Shown here: one piece after another, positions 39,090-50,766 of the stretch
Position numbering within the stretch: the first letter of the stretch is position 1
Layout: the number at the start of each line of letters is the position of its first letter
Origin: Streptomyces megasporus
GTDB lineage: Bacteria > Actinomycetota > Actinomycetes > Streptomycetales > Streptomycetaceae
Direction of reading: 5' to 3'
Length of the DNA: 64,000 nt
Assembly: GCF_000718985.1 (NCBI RefSeq)
Contig: NZ_JODL01000014.1
Span: forward strand, 1 to 64,000
The notes under the pieces: model-generated
Seen by the model: the letters and a program-made list of their open reading frames with translations, nothing else
Databases searched by the model: none
What the model was told of the DNA's origin: nothing
Translations under genes and position numbers: made by a program

Positions 39090-39443
39090 CGTGACACGCC
39101 GACGGGCCGAATCAGGACAACATCGACACCTTGGTGCCCGTCACGCGCAGGAGAGAGGCGGGTCCGCCATGGGCGGCCCCCGGAAACGAAGACACCTCGG
39201 ACCTCCCCCTGTCCCGAGGTGGTGACCGTAGTGCCCTCGGGAGCGCTGAACCCCCACCGCGACCGTTCCGACCACCTCACCGGATGACGACACCGGCAGC
39301 CCGGGCAGAAACACCCATGTCACCCTGGCGCTCATATGGCGGTGCCTCTCTGTGGTGGTGTCCGCGAGACCTCCGACGGCAGGAGGCCCACCGCGCCGCC
39401 GGCCGGGGAGGCGGTCTTGGAAAGGTTCCGGGAAAACTCTAGG
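39090..39443. other. Intergenic region upstream of the siderophore operon
   Basis: About 350 bases without a recognised gene. Several short open frames lack ribosome sites and coding bias. The far end contains the iron box described separately. Confidence 0.5.
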
Positions 39444-39462
39444 TTAGGTTCCCCTAACCAGA
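39444..39462 (+). promoter_or_regulatory. Iron box (DmdR/IdeR operator) of the siderophore operon
   Basis: TTAGGTTCCCCTAACC plus AGA matches 14 of 19 positions of the actinobacterial iron box TTAGGTTAGGCTAACCTAA, with both half sites TTAGGTT and CTAACC intact. It lies 70 bases before the first gene, so DmdR1-type repression under iron sufficiency is expected. Confidence 0.85.
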
Positions 39463-39531
39463 CGGCGGCCCGGTGGGCGGCCGGCTGTGACGTGTGCCTG
39501 GACAATCGACCCCCGCCCGAGGTGGAAGCCC

Positions 39532-40809
39532 GTGTCCATCGTTCTCCCGCCGTCCGCCGCCCCGCGCTCCGCCTACCCCGCCCGGGTCCTTCCCGGGCCG
39601 CTCCGTCGCAGGCTCGGGGAGCTGGCGGAGGGGGAGGAGCCCGTGTCCGCCTACCTGTACGACGGCGAGGTGGCCGCGGGACGCGCACGCGCGCTGCGCG
39701 AGGCGTTACCGGAGTGGGCGGCCGTCCACTACGCGGTGAAGGCCAACTCCTTCCCCGGCGTGATCAAGGCGTTGACGCCGCACGTGGACGGCTTCGAGGT
39801 CGCGTCGCGGGCCGAGCTGGAGCTGGCCCTGGCGGCCCTCCGGGAGAAGGGAGACGCCGGCCTCCCGAGCTCCCCGGCCTCCCCCGTCCCCGTCGTCGCG
39901 GCCGGGCCCGCGAAGTCCGTGCCCGTGCTGACCGCCCTGGTACGGGCCGGAGTCGAGGCGATCAACGCCGAGAGCCTGCTGGAGCTCCACCGCATCAGTC
40001 GGATCGCCGTCACCGAGGGCGTCACCGCCCGGGTGGCGCTGCGCGTCAACCCCGCCGACATCCCCGTCACCGGTTCGCTGCGCATGGGCGGGGTGCCCTC
40101 GCAGTTCGGCATCCCCGAGCCCGACGTCCCCGAGGTGCTGCGCGAGGCGCTGCGGCTTCCGGGGCTGGACGTGACCGGTTTCCACATCCACGCCGCGTCC
40201 AACAACCTCGACGCCGACTCCCAGGCCGCCTACCTGCGCTGGTGCGTGGAGTGGAGCGTGCGGGCCGCCCGTGAGCACGGTGTCGAACTGCGTCACGTCG
40301 ACATCGGCGGCGGCATAGGCGTGGCGTTCGAGGAACTCGCCGGCGAGAAGCCGTTCGACGTCGCCCGCTTCGGCGAGTCGGTGAGGCGGGTGGAGCCGCC
40401 GTCCGGGGTGCGGGTGATCCTGGAACCGGGACGTTTCCTGGTCGCCGACTGCGGTTGGTACGCGGCCGAGGTGACCGACGTCAAACACGGCTACGGCACC
40501 GTCTTCGTGGTGCTGCGCGGCGGCATCAACCACTTCCAACTCCCCACCTCCTGGGACTTGGTGCACAACATCGCCGTCCTGCCCGTCGAGGGATGGCCCG
40601 AGGGTCTGCCGCGCCCCGAGGCGACCGACACGCGCGTGACGGTCGTCGGTGAATTGTGCACGCCCGAGGACACTCTGTTGCGCGATGTCCGGGTGGACCG
40701 CGTCCGTGCGGGCGATCTGGTCGTTTTCCCCTATGCGGGTTCCTACGGATGGGAGTTCGCGATGCACAGCTTCCTCGGCCACCCCGTCGCGGAACGCCAC
40801 CTGCTCTGA
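39532..40809 (+). CDS. Fold-III PLP decarboxylase (LysA/SbnH-like) of the siderophore operon
   Basis: Alanine-racemase-fold decarboxylase, 425 residues, related to diaminopimelate decarboxylase and to siderophore decarboxylases SbnH (staphyloferrin B) and PvsE (vibrioferrin). The PLP lysine is K70 in HYAVKANSFPGV. HIHAASNN, GGGIG and EPGRFLVADCGWY build the cofactor site, and C376 in GELCTPED is the partner-chain active-site cysteine. The GTG at 39532 follows GAGGTGGAAG. First gene after the iron box; the next gene starts 57 bases later. Substrate may be an amino acid building block or a citryl intermediate as for SbnH; the context argues against lysine biosynthesis. Confidence 0.85.
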   Translation: MSIVLPPSAAPRSAYPARVLPGPLRRRLGELAEGEEPVSAYLYDGEVAAGRARALREALPEWAAVHYAVKANSFPGVIKALTPHVDGFEVASRAELELALAALREKGDAGLPSSPASPVPVVAAGPAKSVPVLTALVRAGVEAINAESLLELHRISRIAVTEGVTARVALRVNPADIPVTGSLRMGGVPSQFGIPEPDVPEVLREALRLPGLDVTGFHIHAASNNLDADSQAAYLRWCVEWSVRAAREHGVELRHVDIGGGIGVAFEELAGEKPFDVARFGESVRRVEPPSGVRVILEPGRFLVADCGWYAAEVTDVKHGYGTVFVVLRGGINHFQLPTSWDLVHNIAVLPVEGWPEGLPRPEATDTRVTVVGELCTPEDTLLRDVRVDRVRAGDLVVFPYAGSYGWEFAMHSFLGHPVAERHLL

Positions 40810-40866
40810 CCACCCCGGCGCGGCCACCGGGCCGTACCGCCGCCACTCCTGACGGAGCGCCACCAC

Positions 40867-42297
40867 ATGACCGTGTCCACCACGTCACCCACACCGCCCG
40901 CCGCCACGGCCGGCACCACGGCCGACGCCATCCTGCGGCGCCAGCGGGCGCGGGAGTCCTCGGCCCGTACCTACGCCCGCTCCTTCCCCATCGTCCCGGT
41001 CCGCGCGTACGGCATGACGGTGGAGGGCACCGACGGGCGCCGCTACCTCGACTGCCTCGCCGGGGCCGGCACCCTCGCCCTGGGCCACAACCATCCCGTG
41101 GTGACCGAGGCCGTGCGGCGCACGGTGGACAGCGGCGCGCCCCTGCACGTCCTGGACCTGGCGACGCCACAGAAGGACGAGTTCACCGAAGCGCTGTTCG
41201 CCACGCTGCCGCCCGCGTTCGCCGACCGCGCCCGGATCCACTTCTGCGGGCCCGCCGGCACCGACGCGGTGGAGGCGGCGCTGAAGCTGATGCAGACCGC
41301 CACCGGACGGCAGGGCCTGCTGGCCTTCACCGGCGCCTACCACGGGATGACGGCGGGCGCGTTGGCCGTCTCCGGCGGGGTCGCCGTCAAACGGCCGGTG
41401 CCGGGGCTCGCCGCCGATGTGACGCGGCTGCCGTACCCGTACTCCTACCGCTGCCCGTTCGGGGTGGGCGGGGAGCGCGGGGCGGAGCTGTCGGCGGCCT
41501 ACGCGGAGCGGTTGTTGGACGATCCGAACGGGGGTGTGGTGTCGCCCGCCGCGATGGTCCTGGAGGCGGTGCAGGGCGAGGGCGGTGTGGTGCCCGCCCC
41601 GGACGGGTGGCTGCGCGCGATGCGGCGGATCACCGCCGAGCGGGGGATTCCGCTGATCGTGGACGAGGTGCAGACCGGTGTGGGACGCACGGGCGCGTTC
41701 TGGGCGGTCGAGCACAGCGGGATCGTGCCGGACGCGATGGTGCTGTCGAAGGCGATCGGCGGCAGCCTGCCGCTGGCGGTGGTCGTCTACCGGGAGGACT
41801 ACGACGACTGGTCGCCCGGCGCGCACGCCGGGACGTTCCGCGGCAACACCCTGGCCATGGCGGCGGGCGCGGCCACCCTGCGGTACGTGGCGCGCGAGGG
41901 TCTGGCGGGGCGGGCGGCCGAGGTCGGCGCGCGGATGACGGCCCGGTTGGACGCGCTCCGCGCCGAGTCGTCCGCGATCGGCGACGTACGGGGGCGGGGC
42001 CTGATGATCGGCGTGGAGTTGGTCGACCCGGAGGGCGTGCCCGACGCCTGCGGCGCCCGTCCCCCCGCGCCCGACACGGCGGACCGGGTACGGGCGGCGT
42101 GCCTGGAGAGGGGCCTGATCGTGGAGTTGGGCGGACGGCACGACGCGACGGTGCGGCTGCTGCCGCCGTTGGTGATCACCGACGCGGAAGCCGAGGCCGT
42201 GCTGGACCGGCTGGCCGACGCGATCTCCGTGGTGACGGCCCGCCGAGGCGCGTCCCGACCGGGCGCCGGCCGACGGAACACCGGGCGGCCGGCATGA
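40867..42297 (+). CDS. 2,4-diaminobutyrate aminotransferase (RhbA/EctB-like)
   Basis: Class III PLP aminotransferase of 476 residues, predicted to convert aspartate semialdehyde and glutamate to 2,4-diaminobutyrate. PLP lysine K295 lies in LSKAIGGSLPLAVV and the phosphate-binding region in GPAGTDAVEAALK; DEVQTGVGRTG is the family signature. Followed, with a 4-base overlap, by a group II decarboxylase, exactly the RhbA-RhbB order that makes 1,3-diaminopropane for rhizobactin 1021 and schizokinen. RBS-like GACGGAGCGCCACC precedes the ATG. The short Arg/Gly-rich C-terminus beyond residue 455 is dispensable-looking. Confidence 0.9.
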   Translation: MTVSTTSPTPPAATAGTTADAILRRQRARESSARTYARSFPIVPVRAYGMTVEGTDGRRYLDCLAGAGTLALGHNHPVVTEAVRRTVDSGAPLHVLDLATPQKDEFTEALFATLPPAFADRARIHFCGPAGTDAVEAALKLMQTATGRQGLLAFTGAYHGMTAGALAVSGGVAVKRPVPGLAADVTRLPYPYSYRCPFGVGGERGAELSAAYAERLLDDPNGGVVSPAAMVLEAVQGEGGVVPAPDGWLRAMRRITAERGIPLIVDEVQTGVGRTGAFWAVEHSGIVPDAMVLSKAIGGSLPLAVVVYREDYDDWSPGAHAGTFRGNTLAMAAGAATLRYVAREGLAGRAAEVGARMTARLDALRAESSAIGDVRGRGLMIGVELVDPEGVPDACGARPPAPDTADRVRAACLERGLIVELGGRHDATVRLLPPLVITDAEAEAVLDRLADAISVVTARRGASRPGAGRRNTGRPA

Positions 42298-43868
42298 CGA
42301 GCCACGTCCACGCATCGGAGCTCCGTCGGGCCGCCCGCCTCCCTGCGGCACGCGGCGACGCCGAAGCGCCCCCCGACACAACCGCCGCACCCGACGCACC
42401 CGCCCTGTCCGGCGGCACAGCCGGGCCCGCCGCCCTGGAACCGCTGCTGCGCACCGTGCTGACCGCCCTCGCCGAGGGCGCCGGGCGGCGCGCCGGTCCC
42501 GTCCCCGCCGGCGCGCCCGACGCGCTGGCCGCGCACGTCGCCGAGGAGTTCGCGGCGGCCCGCGGCGAGGAGGCGCTGTCCCGGCTGACCGCGCTGCTGG
42601 CCTACGGCAGCGCGGACCCGGCCGACCCGTCCTGCGCCGCGCACCTCCACTGCCCGCCGCTGGCCGTCGCCGCCGCGGCCGACCTGGCGGTCTCCGCGCT
42701 CAACCCCTCCCAGGACTCCTGGGACCAGGCCCCGGCCGCCACCACTCTGGAAACGCTGCTCCTGGCCGAACTGGCCGAGCTGGTGGGCTATGACGAGGAG
42801 GCCACCGGGGTGCTGACCTCCGGCGGCACCGAATCCAACCTGATGGGCCTGATGCTCGCCCGCGACCAGGTGCTGGGGCGCGCGTCCGGACGGCGGGTGG
42901 AGGTGGACGGCGTGCCGCGGGGCGGGCCGCGTCCGCGCGTGTTCACCTCCGCCGCCGCGCACTTCTCCGTCCAGCGGTCCGCCGCCCTGCTGGGCCTGGG
43001 CGAGGACGCGGTGGTGCCCGTCGCCGTCGATCACGCGCTGCGGATGGACCCGAGCGCCCTGGCCGAGGCCCTCAAGCGGTGTTCGGACGACGGCGAGTCG
43101 CCGGTCGCCGTCGTCGCCACCGCCGGCACCACCGACACCGGGGCGATCGATCCGCTGCGCGCCTGCGCGGAGGCCGCCGCCGAGGCGGGTGCCTGGCTGC
43201 ACGTGGACGCGGCCTACGGCGGCGGCGCGCTGCTGTCGGACCGGCTCGCCCCGCTGCTGGACGGCATCGCGCTGGCCGACTCCGTCTCCCTGGACTGGCA
43301 CAAGCTGGGCTGGCAGCCCATCGCGGCGGGCGTGTTCCTGGTGCGACGCGCGGAGACGTACGCCTCCCTGGCCCGGCGCGCGGTGTACCTCAACCCGCGC
43401 GACGACGAGGAGGCCGGCTATCCCAGTCTGCTGGGCCTGTCACCGCGCACCACCCGGCGCGCGGACGCGTTCTCCATGGCCGTCACCCTGCGCGCGCTGG
43501 GCCGCGAGGGTCTGGGGCGCCTGGTGGACGCCTGCCACGGGCTGGCGCTGGCCGGGGCCGCGGCGGTGCGGGCCCATCCCCGGCTGGAGCTGCACTGCGA
43601 CCCCGTCCTGTCGGCCCTCCTCTTCCGCTACCTGCCGACGACGGGCTCCGAGGACGCCGAGCGGACGGACCGGATCAACGCCTCCCTGCGGCGCAGGCTG
43701 CTGCGCGAGGGGCGCGCGGTCGTCGGCCGCACCGAGGTGCCGGGCGAGGGGCCGGGCCGGGTCCGTCTCAAGCTCACCCTGCTCAACCCGTACGCGACCC
43801 CGGCCGACGTGACGCGGCTGCTGGACGCGGTCGCCGCGGCGGGCCGGGCGGAGGAGGCGGCCCCGTGA
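42294..43868 (+). CDS. Group II PLP decarboxylase, 2,4-diaminobutyrate decarboxylase-like (RhbB)
   Basis: PLP decarboxylase of 524 residues expected to turn 2,4-diaminobutyrate into 1,3-diaminopropane. The PLP lysine is K337 in SLDWHKLGWQP; TSGGTESNLMGLMLAR binds the phosphate and HVDAAYGGGALLS is the usual aspartate strand. The N-terminal 45 residues are Ala/Pro-rich and probably disordered. Starts at an ATG overlapping the aminotransferase stop by 4 bases and ends with a 4-base overlap into the ligase gene. Together with the preceding gene it supplies the diamine backbone of a hydroxamate siderophore. Confidence 0.9.
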   Translation: MTSHVHASELRRAARLPAARGDAEAPPDTTAAPDAPALSGGTAGPAALEPLLRTVLTALAEGAGRRAGPVPAGAPDALAAHVAEEFAAARGEEALSRLTALLAYGSADPADPSCAAHLHCPPLAVAAAADLAVSALNPSQDSWDQAPAATTLETLLLAELAELVGYDEEATGVLTSGGTESNLMGLMLARDQVLGRASGRRVEVDGVPRGGPRPRVFTSAAAHFSVQRSAALLGLGEDAVVPVAVDHALRMDPSALAEALKRCSDDGESPVAVVATAGTTDTGAIDPLRACAEAAAEAGAWLHVDAAYGGGALLSDRLAPLLDGIALADSVSLDWHKLGWQPIAAGVFLVRRAETYASLARRAVYLNPRDDEEAGYPSLLGLSPRTTRRADAFSMAVTLRALGREGLGRLVDACHGLALAGAAAVRAHPRLELHCDPVLSALLFRYLPTTGSEDAERTDRINASLRRRLLREGRAVVGRTEVPGEGPGRVRLKLTLLNPYATPADVTRLLDAVAAAGRAEEAAP

Positions 43869-45709
43869 CGCCGGGCGCCGGCGGCCCGGACCCGCTGGAC
43901 CACCCCGACGTCCTGCGCGCCGCCGACGCCGCCGCGACGGAGCGGCTGCTGCGCGCGTACGTCCGCGAGACCGGCACGGAGGTCCCGGAGGCGGGCCGGT
44001 CGCTGCACGTCGTCCTGCCCCTCGGCGGGCCGACGCTGCGGGTGCCGGTGCGGTACCGATCGGCGACGGGGTGGCACCGGTTCGGGCCGGCGCTCGTCGT
44101 CGCCTCCGAGCGGGGCGGCGGCCTCCCGGCCGATGTGGCGCTGGTGGCGGCGGCGCTGGTGCGGGAGGGCACGCTCGGCCGCGGCAGACCGCCCCACCTG
44201 GGCACGGACGCGGTGGGCCGGGTGCTGGACTCCGCTCGCCGCACCGCCGTCCACCTGGCCCGACGCCGTGCGGAGCCGCCCGGTACCAGGGGTCCGACGC
44301 CGTTCCTGGACGCCGAGCAGGCGCTGCTGCTGGGCCATCCCTTCCACCCCGCGCCCAAGAGCCGCGAGGGGGCGTCCGAGACCGAACTGGCGGCGTACTC
44401 GCCGGAGACGCGCGGCTCCTTCCCGCTGTACTGGTTCGCCGCGCACCCGGACGTGGTCGTCGGCGAGAGCGCGGACGGTCGTCCGGTGGCCGACCTGCTG
44501 CGCGCCCAGGCCGTGGGCGTGGAGGTGCCCGACGGGACGGTCCCGGTGCCCGCCCACCCCTGGCAGGCGCGCGAGGCGACCGCCCGCCCGGAGGTCGCCG
44601 CCCTGGTGGACGCGGGGCTGCTGCGTCCGGTGGGGCAGGCCGGTCCCGTCTGGCATCCGACGTCCTCGGTGCGGACCGTGCACCGCCCGGACGCGGAGGT
44701 CATGTTCAAGTTGTCGCTCGGCATGCGGATCACCAACTCCCGCCGCGACAACCGCCGCGGCGAGCTGCGGCTGGGGGTGCGGGCCGCCCGGCTGTTGGCG
44801 GCCTCCGCGCCCGGGCGTCCCGGTCCGGCCGCCTGGCTGCGCGCCGAGCACCCGGGGTTCGGCGTCCTGCGGGACTTCGCCTGGGTGTCGGTGGGCGCGG
44901 ACGGGCCGGGCGCGGGGACGGGTGCGGAGACCGGCACGGGTGCGGACACGGCGACGGGCGCGGAGACGGGCCTGGAGACGGCGATCCGCGACAACCCCTT
45001 CCGGGGCGGGGCGGGCGACGCGCTGTGCGTGGCCGGGCTGGTGGCCGAGCGCACCGGGCCGGGCGACGGCTCCCCGCCGCCTTACCGGGCCCCGCTGTGC
45101 GAGGCCGTGGAGCGCGCCGCCCGCGTTCTGGGCGTCTCCCCCGCCGAGGCGTCCGCGCGCTGGCTGGCCCGCTACCTCGACGTGCTGGTCGTCCCGCTGA
45201 TCCGCCTCCGGGCCCGGTACGGCATCGCCCTGGAGCCGCACCACCAGAACACCCTGGTGGCCCTCGATCGCGCCGGGCTGCCCGTCGCCGGCTGGTGCCG
45301 CGACAGTCAGGGCTACTACGTGGCCGCCTCCCACGCCGCCGGGCTGGACCGGCTGTTGCCGGGGGTGGCCGAGGGAGTGGAGCTGGTCTTCGACGACGCG
45401 TTCGTCGACGAGCGCGTCGCCTACTACCTGGGCGTCAACAACCTCCTGGGTCTGATCGGCGCCCTCGGTTCGCTGGGCTTGGCCGACGAGGAGGAGCTGC
45501 TGCGCGTGGCGCGCGACGCGCTGGAGCGGATGCGGGCGACCGAGCCCGGCGCCAAGGGCCTGCTCGACCTGCTGCTGGACGCGCCGGTCCTGCGCTGCAA
45601 GGGCAACTTCCTCACCTGCGTGGACGGGCTCGACGAGCTGGTCGGCGACGTCCACACCCAGTCCGTCTACATCGACCTTCCCAACCCCCTCGCGGAGGCG
45701 CAGCGGTGA
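43865..45709 (+). CDS. NIS siderophore synthetase, IucA/IucC family (RhbC-like)
   Basis: ATP-dependent ligase condensing citrate with an amine, the committing step of NRPS-independent siderophores. 614 residues. Family motifs are GHPFHPAPKSREG, PAHPWQ, KLSLGMRITNSRR, EPHHQNTLVAL and RCKGNFLTC. Between about 350 and 375 is an acidic low-complexity insert made of GAETGTGADTATG units, absent from the family core, probably a surface loop grown by slippage. Starts at GTG 43865 inside the preceding stop. Placement before the hydroxylase mirrors rhbC. Which carboxyl of citrate it uses cannot be read from sequence. Confidence 0.9.
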   Translation: MTPGAGGPDPLDHPDVLRAADAAATERLLRAYVRETGTEVPEAGRSLHVVLPLGGPTLRVPVRYRSATGWHRFGPALVVASERGGGLPADVALVAAALVREGTLGRGRPPHLGTDAVGRVLDSARRTAVHLARRRAEPPGTRGPTPFLDAEQALLLGHPFHPAPKSREGASETELAAYSPETRGSFPLYWFAAHPDVVVGESADGRPVADLLRAQAVGVEVPDGTVPVPAHPWQAREATARPEVAALVDAGLLRPVGQAGPVWHPTSSVRTVHRPDAEVMFKLSLGMRITNSRRDNRRGELRLGVRAARLLAASAPGRPGPAAWLRAEHPGFGVLRDFAWVSVGADGPGAGTGAETGTGADTATGAETGLETAIRDNPFRGGAGDALCVAGLVAERTGPGDGSPPPYRAPLCEAVERAARVLGVSPAEASARWLARYLDVLVVPLIRLRARYGIALEPHHQNTLVALDRAGLPVAGWCRDSQGYYVAASHAAGLDRLLPGVAEGVELVFDDAFVDERVAYYLGVNNLLGLIGALGSLGLADEEELLRVARDALERMRATEPGAKGLLDLLLDAPVLRCKGNFLTCVDGLDELVGDVHTQSVYIDLPNPLAEAQR

Positions 45710-47112
45710 CCGACCACCCCACCCCGGTGCACGACGGTGTGCACGACGGCGAGCACGACAGCGAGCACGACGGCGTGTACGACCTCGTCGGCGTCGGCAT
45801 CGGCCCGTTCAACCTCTCCCTGGCCGCGCTCTGCGACGGCGTGCCGGAGCTGAACGCCCTCTTCCTGGACCGCCGGCCCGCCTTCTCCTGGCACCCGGGC
45901 CTGCTGCTGGAGGGCACCGTCCTCCAAGTGCCGTTCCTGGCCGACCTGGTGACGATGGTCGACCCCACCAGCCGCTGGTCGTACCTGAACTACCTGCGCG
46001 AGCACGAGCGGCTGTTCCCGTTCTTCTTCTCCGAGCGGTTCCACATCCCGCGCCGCGAGTACGACCACTACTGCCGCTGGGTCGCCGAGCGCCTGCCGTC
46101 CTGCCGTTTCGACGCCGAGGTCACCGCCGTGGAGTGGGACGCGGCGGCCGGGGCGTTCGCGCTCGCGCACCGCTCGGCGGACGGACGCCGGGCGCGCGTC
46201 CTGGCCCGTCGGGTCGTCCTGGGCGTCGGCACGTCCCCGAGCGTGCCCGAGCCGCTGCGCCCCCTGCTCACGCCCGCGCACGCCGGGCGCGTCCTGCACA
46301 GCGCCGACTACCGCGCCCACCGCGCCGCCCTGGCCGAGCGGGACGACGTCACGGTGATCGGCGCGGGCCAGTCCGGCGCCGAGGTGGTGCTCGACCTGCT
46401 GCGGCACCAGGACGGCCAAGGGCGCGGCGGCCCGTACGTGCGCTGGCTGGCGCGCACCCCGGCGTTCGCGCCCATGGAGTACTCCAAGATCGGGCTGGAG
46501 CACTTCACGCCCGACTACGTCCGCTACTTCCGCGGTCTGCCCGAGGCCACCCGCGAGCGACTGGTGCGCGCCCAGTGGCAGCTCTACAAGGGGGTCAGCG
46601 AGGAGACGCTCGCCGACATCCACGACGAGCTGTACGAGCGGACCATCGGCGGCGGACGGCCCCGCGCCGACCTCCACCCCGGCGTGGAGGTCACCGCCGC
46701 GCGGGAGGACGGCGACGGCTACGTCCTCACCTGCCGCCACGCCGAGCAGGGCACGGAGTTCGAGGTGCGCACCTCGGCGGTGGTGGCCGCCACCGGCTAC
46801 GCGGCCGTGCGCCCGGCCTTCCTGGAGTCCCTGGAGAAGCTCGTCGACCGGGACGACAAGGGCCGCTACCGCGTCGACGGCTCCTACCGCGTCGCCCTCG
46901 ACGCGACCGTCACCGGCACGCTGTACGTCCAGAACGCCGAGCTGCACACCCACGGCGTGGGGACGCCCGACCTGACCCTGGGCGCGTGGCGGGCGGCGAC
47001 GATCCTCAACTCCGCCGCCGGACGGACGGTGGTGAAGGTCCCCGACCGCGTGGCCTGGACGACCTTCGGGGCGCCCGAGCCCGGGCCGCGGACCGGGGAG
47101 GCCGCGCGATGA
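45706..47112 (+). CDS. Flavin-dependent amine N-hydroxylase (IucD/RhbE-like)
   Basis: NADPH- and FAD-dependent monooxygenase of 468 residues that hydroxylates a primary amine on the way to a hydroxamate. FAD motif GIGPFN at 31-36, NADPH motif GAGQSG at 219-224 and the C-terminal ATGY at 362-365 are all present. The substrate here is probably 1,3-diaminopropane or its conjugate, not lysine, as in RhbE. The N-terminus (residues 9-23) is an unusual His-Asp tract, HDGVHDGEHDSEHDG, generated by a tandem DNA repeat at about 45730-45773. GTG start overlaps the ligase stop by 4 bases. Confidence 0.9.
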   Translation: MTDHPTPVHDGVHDGEHDSEHDGVYDLVGVGIGPFNLSLAALCDGVPELNALFLDRRPAFSWHPGLLLEGTVLQVPFLADLVTMVDPTSRWSYLNYLREHERLFPFFFSERFHIPRREYDHYCRWVAERLPSCRFDAEVTAVEWDAAAGAFALAHRSADGRRARVLARRVVLGVGTSPSVPEPLRPLLTPAHAGRVLHSADYRAHRAALAERDDVTVIGAGQSGAEVVLDLLRHQDGQGRGGPYVRWLARTPAFAPMEYSKIGLEHFTPDYVRYFRGLPEATRERLVRAQWQLYKGVSEETLADIHDELYERTIGGGRPRADLHPGVEVTAAREDGDGYVLTCRHAEQGTEFEVRTSAVVAATGYAAVRPAFLESLEKLVDRDDKGRYRVDGSYRVALDATVTGTLYVQNAELHTHGVGTPDLTLGAWRAATILNSAAGRTVVKVPDRVAWTTFGAPEPGPRTGEAAR

Positions 47113-48944
47113 CCCCCTCCCTCCCCGGAATACCCCGTGCCGCCTGGGCGGAGGCGGGCCGGAGACTGCTGGTCAAGGCCGTCGAGGAGTTCGCGTACGA
47201 GGAGCTGCTCACCCCCGTGCCCGGTCCCGAACCCGGCACCTGGCGGTTGGAGCCGGGGGACGGCGTCCGGTGGACGTTCCGCGCCGACCGCGGCGCCTTC
47301 GGCTCCTGGCGCCTCGTCCCCGGCACCCTCCGCCGCCACCCGGAGCCCGGCGACGGCGAGGAGGCCGGTCCCGAGCGGCTGCTGCTCGACGTCCGCCCGG
47401 CGCTCGGCTGGGACGGTCCCACCACCGCCGAGGTGCTGCGCGAGCTGACCGCCACCCGCCGCGCCCAGGCCGAGACCATCGCCCGCGACCTGCCCGCCGC
47501 CGACCTCGCCGACCTGGACCACGTGGCCCTGGAGGCCCACCAGGACGGCCATCCCTGCATGCTGCTCAACAAGGGCCGGCTGGGCTTCTCCGCCTCCGAC
47601 GCCGCCGCCTACGCTCCCGAGGCCGCCGGCGAGGTGCGGCTGCGCTGGGCTGCGGTGCACACCTCCCTGGCCTCCTACGCGGGCGTTCCCGGTCTGGACG
47701 AGGAGACCCTGCTCGCCGAGGAGTTGGACGCCGCCACCCGTGGGCGCTTCACCGCCGCCCTGGCCGACGCCTGCGCCGAAGGCCCTTACGAAGCAGGGGA
47801 GTTCGTCTGGCTGCCGGTGCACCCCTTCCACTGGGACGAGGCCGTCGAACCCCTCTTCGCGCCCTACCTCGCCGACGGCCGGATCGTCCCGCTCGGCGAG
47901 GGCCCGGACCGCTACCGGCCCCTCCAGTCGATCCGCACCCTCGCCAACCTCGACCACCCCGGGCGCCGCGACGTCAAGGTCCCCCTCCTGATCCGCAACA
48001 CCCTGGTGTGGCGCGGGCTGTCCACCGAGCCGACCGGGGCCGCGCCCGACGTCAGCGCCTGGCTCCACGCGCTCCGCGACGCCGACCCGTACCTGAGGGA
48101 CGAGCTGCGCTTCCACCCGCTGGGCGAGGTGGCGTCCGTGGCCGTGCGCCACCCGCTGTACGCGTCGGTGACGGACGCCCCGTACCGCTACCACGAGCTG
48201 CTGGGCGCGGTGTGGCGCGAACCGGTGAGCGCGCTGCTGCGCGACGGCGAGAAGGCCCGCACCATGGCCGCCCTGCTGAAGGTCGGCTCGGACGGGAGGG
48301 CGCTCGTCGCCGAGCTGGTGGAACGTTCCGCCCTGGCCCCGCGCGACTGGCTGGCCCGCTTCCTCGCGGCCCTGCTGCCCGGCCTGCTGCACTGCCTCCA
48401 CCGCCACGGCGTCGCGTTCTGCCCGCACGGCGAGAACACCGTCGTCCTCCACGACGCCGCCGAGGTTCCGATCGGGATCGCCCTCAAGGACTTCGCCGAG
48501 GACGTCAACCTGCTTCCCGGCGACCGTCCCGAGTACGCCGGGCTGTCGGAGCGCGCCGACGCCGTCCTGCTCCGCTGGCCGGCGCGCGAGCTGGCGCACT
48601 CGCTGCTGAGCGCCGTCTTCGCGGGCCACTTCCGCTTCTTCGCGCCCCTCGTCGAGGAGCATCTGGGCGTCCCCGAGGGGGAGTTCTGGGCGCTGGTGCG
48701 CGCCGAGGTGGACCGCCACCGCGCCCGCTTCCCCGAACTCAAGGACCGCTTCGAGGAATTCGGCCTGCTCGCCCCCGTCTTCGACCGGGTGGCGCTCAAC
48801 CGCGAGCAGCTCCTGGGCGGCGCCTTCCACGACCGCGCCGAACGCGACGAGGGCTTCGACGTCGTCCACGGCACCGTCCCCAACCCCCTGGCCGATCCCC
48901 CTCCCGGCGCACCCCCCACCGATGAACGCGAGGAGCCGACGTGA
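47109..48944 (+). CDS. NIS siderophore synthetase, IucA/IucC family (RhbF-like)
   Basis: Second ATP-dependent NIS ligase, 611 residues, expected to attach the second amine arm to the citryl intermediate. Motifs: GHPCMLLNKGRLGFS, LPVHPFHWDEAV, KVPLLIRNTLVWRGLS, FCPHGENTVV and ALKDFAEDVNLL. It is clearly different from the first ligase in this operon, which fits a two-step assembly like RhbC/RhbF or IucA/IucC. ATG overlaps the hydroxylase stop by 4 bases; its own stop overlaps the GS-like gene. The last 30 residues are Pro-rich. Confidence 0.9.
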   Translation: MTPSLPGIPRAAWAEAGRRLLVKAVEEFAYEELLTPVPGPEPGTWRLEPGDGVRWTFRADRGAFGSWRLVPGTLRRHPEPGDGEEAGPERLLLDVRPALGWDGPTTAEVLRELTATRRAQAETIARDLPAADLADLDHVALEAHQDGHPCMLLNKGRLGFSASDAAAYAPEAAGEVRLRWAAVHTSLASYAGVPGLDEETLLAEELDAATRGRFTAALADACAEGPYEAGEFVWLPVHPFHWDEAVEPLFAPYLADGRIVPLGEGPDRYRPLQSIRTLANLDHPGRRDVKVPLLIRNTLVWRGLSTEPTGAAPDVSAWLHALRDADPYLRDELRFHPLGEVASVAVRHPLYASVTDAPYRYHELLGAVWREPVSALLRDGEKARTMAALLKVGSDGRALVAELVERSALAPRDWLARFLAALLPGLLHCLHRHGVAFCPHGENTVVLHDAAEVPIGIALKDFAEDVNLLPGDRPEYAGLSERADAVLLRWPARELAHSLLSAVFAGHFRFFAPLVEEHLGVPEGEFWALVRAEVDRHRARFPELKDRFEEFGLLAPVFDRVALNREQLLGGAFHDRAERDEGFDVVHGTVPNPLADPPPGAPPTDEREEPT

Positions 48945-50299
48945 TCGACGACTACCAGCAATTGCGTGCCGAGGCCGAGGCGGGCCGTGTCGAGGAGGTC
49001 CTCGTCGCCGTCCCCGACCTCCAGGGCCGGCTGATGGGCAGCCGGCTGTCCGTCCCCCACTTCCTGGAGCGGGCGGTCCACGACGGTTTCGGCGCCTGCC
49101 TCTACCTGCTGTCCACCGACGTGGAGATGGACACCGGCCCCGGCTACGCCATCGACGCCTGGAACAGCGGTTTCGGCGATTTCGTCCTGCGCCCCGACCC
49201 GTCCACCCTCCGCACCCGGCTGCCCTGGGACGACGGCACCGCGCTCGTCCTCGCCGACGCCGTCTGGCCCGGTGGGGCGCCGGTGGAGGTCGCCCCCCGC
49301 CACATACTCCGCACCCAGCTCGACCGCCTCGCCGAACGCGGCCTCGTCGCGTACGCCGGGACCGAGCTGGAGTTCCTCGTCTTCACCGCCTCCTACCGCG
49401 AGGCGTGGGAGCGCCGCTACGCCGACCTGCGGCCCGCCACCCGCTACAACGTCGACTACTCCCTCCAGGGGCTGGAGGACATCGAGCCGGTCGTCCGCCG
49501 CATCCGCCGCGAGATGGTCCGCGCCGGGCTGGAGTTGGAGACGGCCCGCGCGGAGTGCCACCCGGGCCAGTACGAGATCGTCTTCCGCTACACGGAGGCG
49601 ATGGCCACCTGCGACCACCACGTCTTCTTCAAGGACGGCGCCAAGCGGATCGCCGCCGCCGAGGGCACGGCGCTCACCTTCATGCCGAAGTTCGACGGGG
49701 GCGAGGGCAACTCCTGCCACGTCCACCTCTCGCTGCGCGACGAGGACGGCGCCCCCGTCCTCGCCGACGAGGGCGCGGACGGGGGCATGTCGGAGACGAT
49801 GCGCCACTTCGTCGCCGGGCAGCTCGCCTGCCTGCCCGACCTGCTCCTGCTGATGGCGCCCAACGTCAACTCCTACAAGCGCCTCCAGCCCGGCGCGTTC
49901 GCCCCGACGGGCATCGCCTGGGGGCCCGACAACCGCACCTGCCCGATACGGGTGGTCGGCTCGGGGCCGTCGCTGCGCATCGAACACCGGGTGCCGGGCG
50001 GGGACGCCAACCCGTACCTGGCCGTCGCCGCCATGGTGGCCGCGGGCCTGTACGGCATCGACAACCGTCTCCCCCTCCCGCCGCCCCACACCGGCAACGC
50101 CCTCGCCGACCCCGCCGTCCCCCGCCTGCCCGCCACCCTCGGCGAGGCCCTGCGCCGCTGGGAGAACAGCGACGTCGCGGCCAAACTCCTCGGTGAGGAG
50201 GTCGTCGCCCACTACGCCCGCGCGGCCCGCACGGAGCTGGCGGCCTTCGAACGCGCGGTCACGGACTGGGAGCGGATGCGGGGGTTCGAGCGGCTGTGA
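48941..50299 (+). CDS. Glutamine-synthetase-like ligase in the siderophore operon
   Basis: Member of the GlnA/PuuA superfamily, 452 residues, forming a gamma-glutamyl or similar amide with ATP. Metal and substrate residues are recognisable: TELEFLVF, ECHPGQYEI, GNSCHVHLSL, NSYKRLQPGAFAPTG with RTCPIRV, and RIEHRVPGGDANPY. It lacks the adenylylation-tyrosine context of housekeeping GlnA and looks closer to gamma-glutamyl-polyamine ligases. GTG overlaps the NIS ligase stop by 4 bases, so it is a genuine operon member. It may glutamylate a diamine intermediate or the siderophore itself, or protect against free diamine; these are inferences. Confidence 0.87.
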   Translation: MIDDYQQLRAEAEAGRVEEVLVAVPDLQGRLMGSRLSVPHFLERAVHDGFGACLYLLSTDVEMDTGPGYAIDAWNSGFGDFVLRPDPSTLRTRLPWDDGTALVLADAVWPGGAPVEVAPRHILRTQLDRLAERGLVAYAGTELEFLVFTASYREAWERRYADLRPATRYNVDYSLQGLEDIEPVVRRIRREMVRAGLELETARAECHPGQYEIVFRYTEAMATCDHHVFFKDGAKRIAAAEGTALTFMPKFDGGEGNSCHVHLSLRDEDGAPVLADEGADGGMSETMRHFVAGQLACLPDLLLLMAPNVNSYKRLQPGAFAPTGIAWGPDNRTCPIRVVGSGPSLRIEHRVPGGDANPYLAVAAMVAAGLYGIDNRLPLPPPHTGNALADPAVPRLPATLGEALRRWENSDVAAKLLGEEVVAHYARAARTELAAFERAVTDWERMRGFERL

Positions 50300-50306
50300 G
50301 GACGTT

Positions 50307-50345
50307 GTTCAGGACGCGGAAGTCTCAGGCGTCCGCGTCCTGAAC
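50307..50345 (+). terminator. Terminator of the siderophore operon
   Basis: Perfect 14-bp stem GTTCAGGACGCGGA (50307-50320) with its complement (50332-50345) and an 11-base loop, 8 bases after the last stop codon. Confidence 0.85.
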
Positions 50346-50766
50346 GCATACCCGCCACATACTCCATCGCCGAAGCGCGAGGCGCGCCATGCCCTCCTCA
50401 CCGAGCACGTCGGCCACACCGGCGCCTGACGATCGGCCACTCCACCCACCTCCGGAAGCAGCACGCCAAGCCGCCCATCGGAGGTGGAGCGGTTTCCGAT
50501 CCGGTCGGGCACGACTCGCCGATGCTCCACCCACGGCGCTCACGGGACGACGGCCTGTTCGACCGTTTCGCCCGCCACGTCGAAACGCAGTGGGAGCAGT
50601 GGCCTCCGGTCGGCGGTTGACCACGTGGACCACCCCGTCCGCCGGACTGGTGGCCGCCTCCGGGAAATTCCTCGGCGTCCGTGTCGATGAGGCCGCCTCC
50701 CGTTCGTCGTCATGGTGTACGGCGACCCGCCGTACGGGACGCGACAGCCCATCAAGGAGACGGACC
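50346..50766. other. Intergenic region with a possible gene fragment
   Basis: About 420 bases. A 32-residue plus-strand frame at 50522-50620 (DGLFDRFARHVETQWEQW) looks protein-like but has no ribosome site and may be the tail of a lost gene. GTACGGCG-ACCC-GCCGTAC at 50714-50732 is a small stem before the YCII gene. No transporter or acetyltransferase for the siderophore is found here. Confidence 0.4.

Follow-up and report, generated by a model that had tools for sequence, protein, structure and literature searches.

The window analysed here, the whole 64-kb stretch (72% G+C) of contig NZ_JODL01000014.1 of Streptomyces megasporus (genome of 5.85 Mb in 195 contigs), carries a seven-gene operon, g1–g7, which is almost certainly a conserved iron-regulated operon for a nonribosomal peptide synthetase-independent siderophore (NIS). 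We propose that this iron-repressed operon would direct the synthesis of a schizokinen/rhizobactin-type dihydroxamate siderophore built on citrate, with the hydroxamate made in a different way. In the proposed pathway, g2 and g3 would yield 1,3-diaminopropane, which g5 would N-hydroxylate; g7, with ATP and L-glutamate, would put a gamma-glutamyl group on the hydroxylamine nitrogen, replacing the coenzyme A (CoA)-dependent RhbD/IucB acetyltransferase; g1 would probably strip the alpha-carboxylate of the glutamyl unit to give a 4-aminobutyryl hydroxamate, as BtrK does on gamma-glutamyl-BtrI; and g4 (type A) and g6 (type C) would attach two such units to citrate. We infer all enzymatic steps, most notably what g7 acylates and what g1 decarboxylates, from sequence, and give the pathway as a whole a probability of about 0.5. 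The odds slightly favour g7 standing in place of RhbD, and fall just short of even for the action of g1 on the glutamyl unit. The bis(4-aminobutyryl) product predicted by this pathway is C20H38N6O9, with [M+H]+ 507.277, and the bis(gamma-glutamyl) product would be C22H38N6O13, with [M+H]+ 595.257; the value for schizokinen, for comparison, is 421.193. For predicted products of m/z 507.277, 551.267, and 595.257, the corresponding Fe(III) complexes would appear at 560.189, 604.179, and 648.168.

Operon structure and iron box

Seven open reading frames (ORFs), located at 39532–50299 on the + strand by ORF calls and Pfam, are bounded by an iron box on the 5′ side and a hairpin on the 3′ side:

39439–39457, + strand: iron box, consensus match with three mismatches
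39532–40809, + strand: g1, fold-III pyridoxal phosphate (PLP) decarboxylase (Pfam Orn/DAP decarboxylase), related to SbnH and BtrK by nearest solved chains
40867–42297, + strand: g2, RhbA-like L-2,4-diaminobutyrate (DABA):2-oxoglutarate aminotransferase (Pfam class III aminotransferase; NCBIfam NF005393)
42294–43868, + strand: g3, RhbB-like DABA decarboxylase (Pfam PLP decarboxylase; best NCBIfam DABADecarRhbB)
43865–45709, + strand: g4, IucA-like NIS synthetase, type A (Pfam IucA_IucC and FhuF)
45706–47112, + strand: g5, flavin N-monooxygenase (Pfam Lys/Orn N-monooxygenase; nearest solved chains)
47109–48944, + strand: g6, IucC/AlcC/DesD-like NIS synthetase, type C (Pfam IucA/IucC; nearest solved chains; tree)
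48941–50299, + strand: g7, proposed gamma-glutamyl:amine ligase, glutamine synthetase (GS)-like (Pfam Gln-synt_C; residue pattern)
50306–50346, + strand: hairpin 3′ of g7, possible terminator without a T-run (folding energy)

Genes g2–g7 are linked through five 4-nt overlaps (42294–42297, 43865–43868, 45706–45709, 47109–47112, and 48941–48944), and a gap of 57 nt separates the end of g1 from the start of g2; an in-frame GTG at 39487 is an alternative start of g1. ORF calls, Pfam, shuffles, and folding agree with an earlier note on this DNA, which had described an iron box, seven genes with six of them joined by 4-nt overlaps, and a hairpin.

The iron box differs at three positions from the consensus TTAGGTTAGGCTCACCTAA and would be an operator of the DmdR/IdeR type. 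It is the sole site with three or fewer mismatches in the 64 kb, and no match was obtained in 100 shuffles. Such a match is also present in 51 of the 59 related loci (described below) with testable upstream DNA, compared with 9 of 295 random 440-nt stretches of the same loci, some of which possibly contain a true site. Judged by this match, the operon carries an iron-responsive operator. The hairpin comprises 15 unbroken pairs (−30.5 kcal/mol, z −5.3); it lacks a T-run and is not called by the terminator scan.

Enzymes of the diamine and citrate backbone

The operon contains the genes that define an NIS pathway, namely two synthetases, g4 and g6, both exceeding the Pfam IucA_IucC cut-off, and enzymes for the building blocks. 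The g2 protein passes NCBIfam NF005393 (DABA aminotransferase) with 681 bits versus a cut-off of 671, and the best NCBIfam model for g3, DABADecarRhbB, scores 367 bits, under its 900-bit cut-off; by family, 1,3-diaminopropane would be the g3 product. The nearest solved structure to g4 is IucA (180 bits), and the nearest solved relatives of g6 are of the NcdF/AlcC/DesD/IucC kind. On a hand-picked 28-row tree, with a long-branch warning for two Pantoea rows, g4 and g6 lie on opposite sides of a 100/100 split, as types A and C. For g5, the nearest solved chains are 6xbb (named only monooxygenase), 5o8p (desferrioxamine pathway), and 7us3 (putrescine N-hydroxylase), and the best NCBIfam model is a putative histamine N-monooxygenase (453 bits, under the 700-bit cut-off); the enzyme is probably of the diamine-hydroxylase kind, similar to RhbE and DesB.

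In the schizokinen/rhizobactin layout, N-hydroxy-1,3-diaminopropane is placed twice on citrate, and RhbD acylates the hydroxylamine. Homologues of RhbA, RhbB, RhbC, RhbE, and RhbF are all present in the window by family, rather than by alignment to the Rhb proteins themselves, which bears out the Rhb-type diamine route suggested by the earlier note. Unlike the rhizobactin 1021/schizokinen system (RhbABCDEF), the operon is without RhbD, no acetyltransferase gene being found among the seven genes, and adds the GS-like ligase and the SbnH/BtrK-like decarboxylase. A plain schizokinen cluster which had lost RhbD was rejected, because the GS and the decarboxylase are conserved over many genera.

Conservation across actinobacteria

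A g1-baited, pattern-limited scan of 84,980 species genomes revealed 62 related loci, which by record title belong to ten genera: Streptomyces, Wenjunlia, Nonomuraea, Streptosporangium, Actinomadura, Micromonospora, Frankia, Parafrankia, Blastococcus, and Geodermatophilus. With 84% identity in g1, the closest loci belong to Streptomyces species, S. carminius and S. radiopugnans among them, and S. fradiae was not among the 62 loci retrieved by this pattern-limited scan. Related sets are widespread in both free-living and plant-symbiotic actinobacteria and form a conserved, iron-box-bearing family of NIS operons. Since they occur in so many actinobacteria, the operon is not a one-strain hybrid: the decarboxylase and the ligase, which the earlier note had considered foreign to the pathway, both belong to it.

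The coupling of g7 to g6 is strict. Wherever 200 nt or more of DNA is available past g6, which is the case in 44 loci representing nine genera, g7 is located 3′ of g6 on the same strand, at a distance of no more than 300 nt in 43 of them and with a 4-nt overlap in 25 (by chosen starts); the gap of 1791 nt counted in L106 reflects a g6 that is matched in three separate pieces. The Frankia and Parafrankia loci also contain g1, which there is divergent from the remaining genes. A g5-baited search of 295 genomes of the genus (own genome included) detected 11 others with an orthologue of at least 70% identity, some of them genomes that also figure among the 62 loci. Contig ends truncate two of these 11 loci; eight of the remaining nine carry g1, g3, g4, g6, and g7, and g2 is present in seven of the eight. 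The ninth, L051 (G287:C71), contains a lone g5 orthologue interrupted by an in-frame stop, and the other six genes are missing within 19 kb; it is perhaps a remnant of a decayed cluster.

The glutamine synthetase-like ligase

The residues of g7 were compared with those of Escherichia coli GlnA, with metal, glutamate, and ammonium site roles as in the GS literature, in 25 full-length rows (the window plus 24 of the 46 g7-bearing loci, duplicate genomes and locus L054 excluded). The metal ligands 129, 131, 212, 220, 269, and 357, residues 271, 339, and 355, and the glutamate residues 265, 321, and 359 are as in GlnA in 25/25 rows. The ammonium site is replaced: Asp50, in a less secure region of the alignment, by Pro, Ser, or Ala, Ser53 by Ala, and Tyr179 by Val, Thr, Ile, or Ala, while the flap residue Glu327 is Phe in every row. 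Partial rows from the Frankia side have G/P, P/A, or P/E (R/E in L118) at positions 50/53, likewise non-ammonium residues. The enzyme conforms to the pattern of GS-fold gamma-glutamyl-amine ligases, with Asn264 as the exception, and does not conform to that of ammonia-ligating GS. These features, together with the Gln-synt_C match, uphold the GS-like ligase of the earlier note.

The gamma-glutamyl-amine ligases PuuA and GlnA4 share with g7 the metal, phosphate, and most glutamate residues and the loss of the ammonium site, and an aromatic residue occupies flap position 327 in both PuuA (Tyr) and g7 (Phe). PuuA functions in amine catabolism, as GlnA4 is reported to do; g7, by contrast, is locked into a siderophore operon. 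Relatives of g7 with 53–60% identity occur away from g1–g6 homologues, and one of them (53–54%) is located in a puu-like catabolic operon with a gamma-glutamyl-gamma-aminobutyrate (GABA) hydrolase and an aldehyde dehydrogenase. On the basis of the residue pattern and these relatives, g7 should therefore join the gamma-carboxylate of glutamate to an amine larger than ammonia. That it acylates a hydroxylamine nitrogen we infer from the N-hydroxyamine which the operon would make; GS enzymes readily accept hydroxylamine, and in the classic GS hydroxamate assay the enzyme joins it to glutamate.

A role of g7 as the only GS of the genome was rejected, since there are four others, two of them with the Asp50, Tyr179, and Glu327 of ordinary GS. 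A different arrangement was observed at L054 (G148:C1:3025500–3044500), where an FhuF-like gene is followed by a monooxygenase, a single type C NIS synthetase, and a GS-like ligase with 41% identity to g7, without g1–g3 and with no DesC/csbC-type GCN5-related N-acetyltransferase (GNAT) nearby; the set resembles DesB–DesD with a GS replacing DesC. One strong Acetyltransf_8 gene is present elsewhere in that genome, and the next best match to the L054 synthetase in 295 congeners has 49% identity. Independent recruitment of a GS at this locus was discarded, as its GS is closer to g7 than to the catabolic relatives (35–38%), and L054 may therefore be a reduced relative.

The SbnH/BtrK-related decarboxylase

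The nearest solved relative of g1 is SbnH (6knh/6knk; 242 bits), in line with the SbnH-related fold-III decarboxylase of the earlier note, followed by BtrK (158), LysA (128), and ornithine decarboxylases (no more than 54). The g1 enzymes thus fall in the subfamily of SbnH (staphyloferrin B) and BtrK (butirosin) and keep the LCTPxD motif. The substrate contacts of SbnH (6knk) are described in PMC7857480, where R304, K347, and H379 contact or adjoin the citryl carboxylates and BtrK converts BtrI-S-glutamate to BtrI-S-GABA. In all 63 rows of g1 left after removal of duplicate genomes, R304 is replaced by Gln or Ala, K347 by Glu, and H379 by Met or Leu, while S308 and W309 are kept in 59 of them; Ser376 is replaced by Glu as well, which makes two invariant acids, at SbnH positions 347 and 376. 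BtrK likewise has Glu at the Lys347 position. With the basic citryl-binding residues replaced, g1 does not resemble the citryl-amino acid decarboxylases SbnH, FslC, and AcsE in its pocket. This pocket is predicted to be neutral to acidic, the character required by a substrate that carries a distal amine, and gamma-glutamyl-N-hydroxydiaminopropane would fit it.

The partnership of g1 can be followed in 14 hand-grouped rearranged loci, with g3 upstream of g1 (L088 starts with g1). Relative to the window, the median identity in these loci is 62% for g2 (n = 6) and 49% for g3 (n = 13), whereas it is 75% for g1, 69% for g4, 78% for g5, 78% for g6, and 76% for g7. For the 32 loci with the same gene order, the medians are 83% (g2), 77% (g3), 79% (g1), 74% (g4), 81% (g5), 80% (g6), and 80% (g7). 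Genes g2 and g3 have thus been displaced and g1 has not, so g1 goes with assembly rather than with diamine supply. In 16 Frankia-side loci, the identities drop together (medians of 54, 66, 54, 46, 57, 53, and 62% for g1–g7) and are uninformative on this point. A housekeeping LysA role of g1 was rejected, as the genome has two other Orn_Arg_deC_N genes.

Search for an acyltransferase

Searches with DesC, a haloarchaeal IucB, and the S. megasporus csbC-like GNAT as queries gave no match at E 1e-4 in the DNA of the 62 loci, while the same three queries do recover each other and other siderophore loci. The absence of RhbD pointed out by the earlier note therefore extends from the window to the related loci, none of which contains a detectable RhbD/IucB-type acyltransferase, and one hidden in the operon was rejected on the same grounds.

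Whole-genome searches for PF13523 were performed for 38 author-chosen genomes of the 62 carriers, and no match above the cut-off was found in seven of the 38; five of these have no match at E 0.001 (L105, L108, L109, L112, and L118), and L119 and L120 have sub-cut-off matches. With an 80-bit bar, set after viewing the list, 14/38 genomes are without a match. Among 14 control genomes, the family exceeds its cut-off in 6, while an IucA_IucC gene is present in only 2 of the 14; a weak match therefore means little and proves no siderophore acyltransferase. In 11 Frankia and Geodermatophilaceae genomes, the seven mentioned included, the two IucA_IucC genes of the cluster are the sole ones (one is in pieces in G326), and the cluster is therefore their whole NIS pathway.

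A GNAT of another family ('X', Acetyltransf_1, about 195 aa) was rejected as a general substitute for RhbD, being full-length in only 10/62 loci and having no match in the window. It is possibly a tailoring acyltransferase, present in L084, L086, L090, L091, L094, L097, L100, L101, L103, and L121, with decayed remnants in L080 and L081.

Alternative explanations

Several observations weigh against the proposed pathway. The position of GNAT 'X' in those ten loci is just upstream of g1. Within g7, Asn264, a listed glutamate-site residue of GlnA, is not kept (gap or Glu, depending on the alignment; PuuA has Ala there), and the acceptor could be a primary amine instead of a hydroxylamine. Within g1, 4 of the 63 rows have Glu for Trp309, and the acidic pocket would equally suit a free basic amino acid. 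The presence of g1 in all 62 loci follows by construction from its use as bait, and the full seven-gene set was found in 34 of them, many others being cut at contig or flank ends. Moreover, g2 was undetected in 13 loci having g3, although the available DNA extends to both sides in 11 of these, and g4 was undetected in L106; the gene set is therefore not rigid. Loci with g3 but no g2 include L062–L064, L068, L071, and L115, and there the 2,4-diaminobutyrate must come from elsewhere, perhaps from ectoine biosynthesis.

The acyl group could also be supplied in trans, by an IucB-type GNAT on contig C12 of the same genome or by another acyltransferase, giving a plain schizokinen backbone with g7 and g1 devoted to a side modification or dispensable. 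A PF13523 match above the cut-off does exist in 31/38 carrier genomes, and the count of seven without one is bounded by the fact that this family does not span all GNATs and that drafts can miss genes. The own genome has three Acetyltransf_8 (PF13523) genes elsewhere (159–167 bits), two on C27 and one on C12, so that an acyltransferase in trans is possible in the S. megasporus strain. The C12 locus (G000:C12, L040), perhaps a reduced csb cluster, combines an IucA-like synthetase (48% identity to g4) with an IucB-type GNAT, and no homologues of g2, g3, g5, or g6 were detected there within 18 kb; the pair might therefore use g3 and g5 of the window. In vitro, the related GNAT CsbC transfers succinyl groups to antibiotics that bear an amino group (PMC9600172). 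We nevertheless consider supply in trans unlikely, in view of the seven genomes without the domain above cut-off that have this cluster as their only source of NIS synthetases, the frequency of the domain in controls, and the presence of g7 in 44/44 assessable loci.

The earlier note had read the two decarboxylases as a source of two amine building blocks for an asymmetric citrate hydroxamate; on this reading, two different diamines would be made and g7 would glutamylate a primary amine of the finished molecule. The co-occurrence of two unrelated PLP decarboxylases in the operon is consistent with this, as are acidic residues in the g1 pocket, to which the amine of a free basic amino acid could bind. 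However, both of the nearest relatives of g1, SbnH and BtrK, act on conjugated amino acids, its similarity to ornithine decarboxylases is low, and it tracks g4–g7 rather than the diamine genes in rearranged loci, which weakens the two-amine reading and leaves it a fairly improbable one; the gamma-glutamylated citrate hydroxamate that the same note envisaged is a probable product by the present analysis too. It is still less likely that g1 decarboxylates a citryl-amino acid (e.g., citryl-DABA) in the manner of SbnH and that g7 caps the free amine: SbnH is indeed its nearest solved relative, with the Ser–Trp pair mostly retained, but the replacement of the three basic residues in 63/63 rows makes the pocket unfit for such a substrate, and g3, as its family suggests, would already decarboxylate DABA. 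A polyamine-detoxifying or ammonia-assimilating GS merely riding in the operon would explain the g7 relatives found outside such clusters, one of them catabolic, and the listing of Frankia FRAAL6426 under ammonia assimilation in PMC8951365; against the lost ammonium site, the strict g6–g7 coupling in nine genera, and the iron box upstream of the set, this explanation appears very improbable.

Relation to known systems

Such hydroxamate siderophores are generally considered to require a CoA-dependent N-acyltransferase. The new part of the pathway proposed here is probably its hydroxamate logic, in which an amidoligase would do the job of the acyltransferase in a conserved operon family. We put forward only tentatively, at somewhat less than even odds, that a GS-fold enzyme physiologically ligates glutamate to a hydroxylamine to form a siderophore hydroxamate and that a PLP decarboxylase then converts it to the 4-aminobutyryl form. 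If true, a CoA-independent hydroxamate route would be used by free-living and plant-symbiotic actinobacteria, and the operon family predicts cationic, nitrogen-rich citrate hydroxamates of defined exact masses.

The earlier note had recognised no described cluster with this gene set. The genes themselves are in print for Frankia alni, where FRAAL6420–6426 (lysA, rhbA, rhbB, rhbE, rhbF, and glnA3, with rhbC in the text) are given as genes of a rhizobactin-related metabolite, with names and order as in the window set; they are listed as genes only, with no product, mechanism, or role of lysA and glnA3 in the part of the paper available (PMC10252897). They are among 108 genes conserved in Frankia clusters 1–3 and absent from two cluster 4 strains (PMC10252897). 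FRAAL6426 was counted as an ammonia-assimilation GS and was 1.8-fold over-abundant in alder nodules (PMC8951365). The FRAAL match is based on names, order, and the shared strains QA3 (L120) and EUN1f (L108), not on the ACN14a sequence. Should the Frankia genes prove to be this set, 'glnA3' (FRAAL6426) would be reinterpreted as a siderophore enzyme, and a hydroxamate siderophore reportedly described in Frankia in 1992 (a study cited in PMC4531530) would become directly testable.

The nearest published relative found in Streptomyces is the csb cluster of Streptomyces sp. YIM 121038, which shares the DABA transaminase and the IucA/IucC pair with the window but has the IucB-like acyltransferase CsbC, and whose table, in the part of PMC9600172 available, lists no monooxygenase, GS, or decarboxylase. 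On the 28-row tree, two csbB-like rows (own C12 and BHT-5-2) share the side of g4, and a csbD-like row (BHT-5-2) shares that of g6, the labels being ours. No product or mechanism for the seven-gene set was found in the literature within reach, which excludes most subscription journals, preprints, and MIBiG.

Transport genes and other siderophore loci

No uptake gene was found beside the cluster among the eight flanking ORFs of the window tested against Pfam; three upstream are unmatched, and the others match glutamate dehydrogenase, TerD, YCII, sigma-70 regions, and PhoX. At other loci (L094:2146–4301 and similar places), a periplasmic binding protein gene and a FecCD permease gene, likely for uptake, are located near the cluster; relatives of the binding protein occur in 13 related loci and those of the permease in 9, and the window cluster has no such neighbours. 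A major facilitator superfamily (MFS) transporter gene lies between g5 and g6 in 30/62 related loci and is absent from the window cluster and several relatives (e.g., L062–L065, L068, and L071); as a transporter gene, it was rejected as a missing pathway enzyme.

The C27 locus of the own genome (G000:C27, L041) contains a desferrioxamine-like set (g3, g5, and g6 homologues with an Acetyltransf_8 gene), after which come a gene of the penicillin-amidase family and another Acetyltransf_8 GNAT. A pair consisting of an RhbB-like decarboxylase (about 50% identity to g3) and an N-monooxygenase (about 57% to g5) is present in L053, L055, L057, L059, and L060, with no match to a DesC/csbC-type acyltransferase or IucA/IucC in 19 kb; in L053 it is located between an M1 aminopeptidase gene and, further on, a pyruvate kinase gene. 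Such pairs were found in 5 of 8 longer loci (L056 and L058 have the monooxygenase alone, and L054 a different set) and in 14 of 18 short ones (L022–L039). Since csb has an acyltransferase and synthetases and no monooxygenase, many Streptomyces may split one hydroxamate pathway over two loci.

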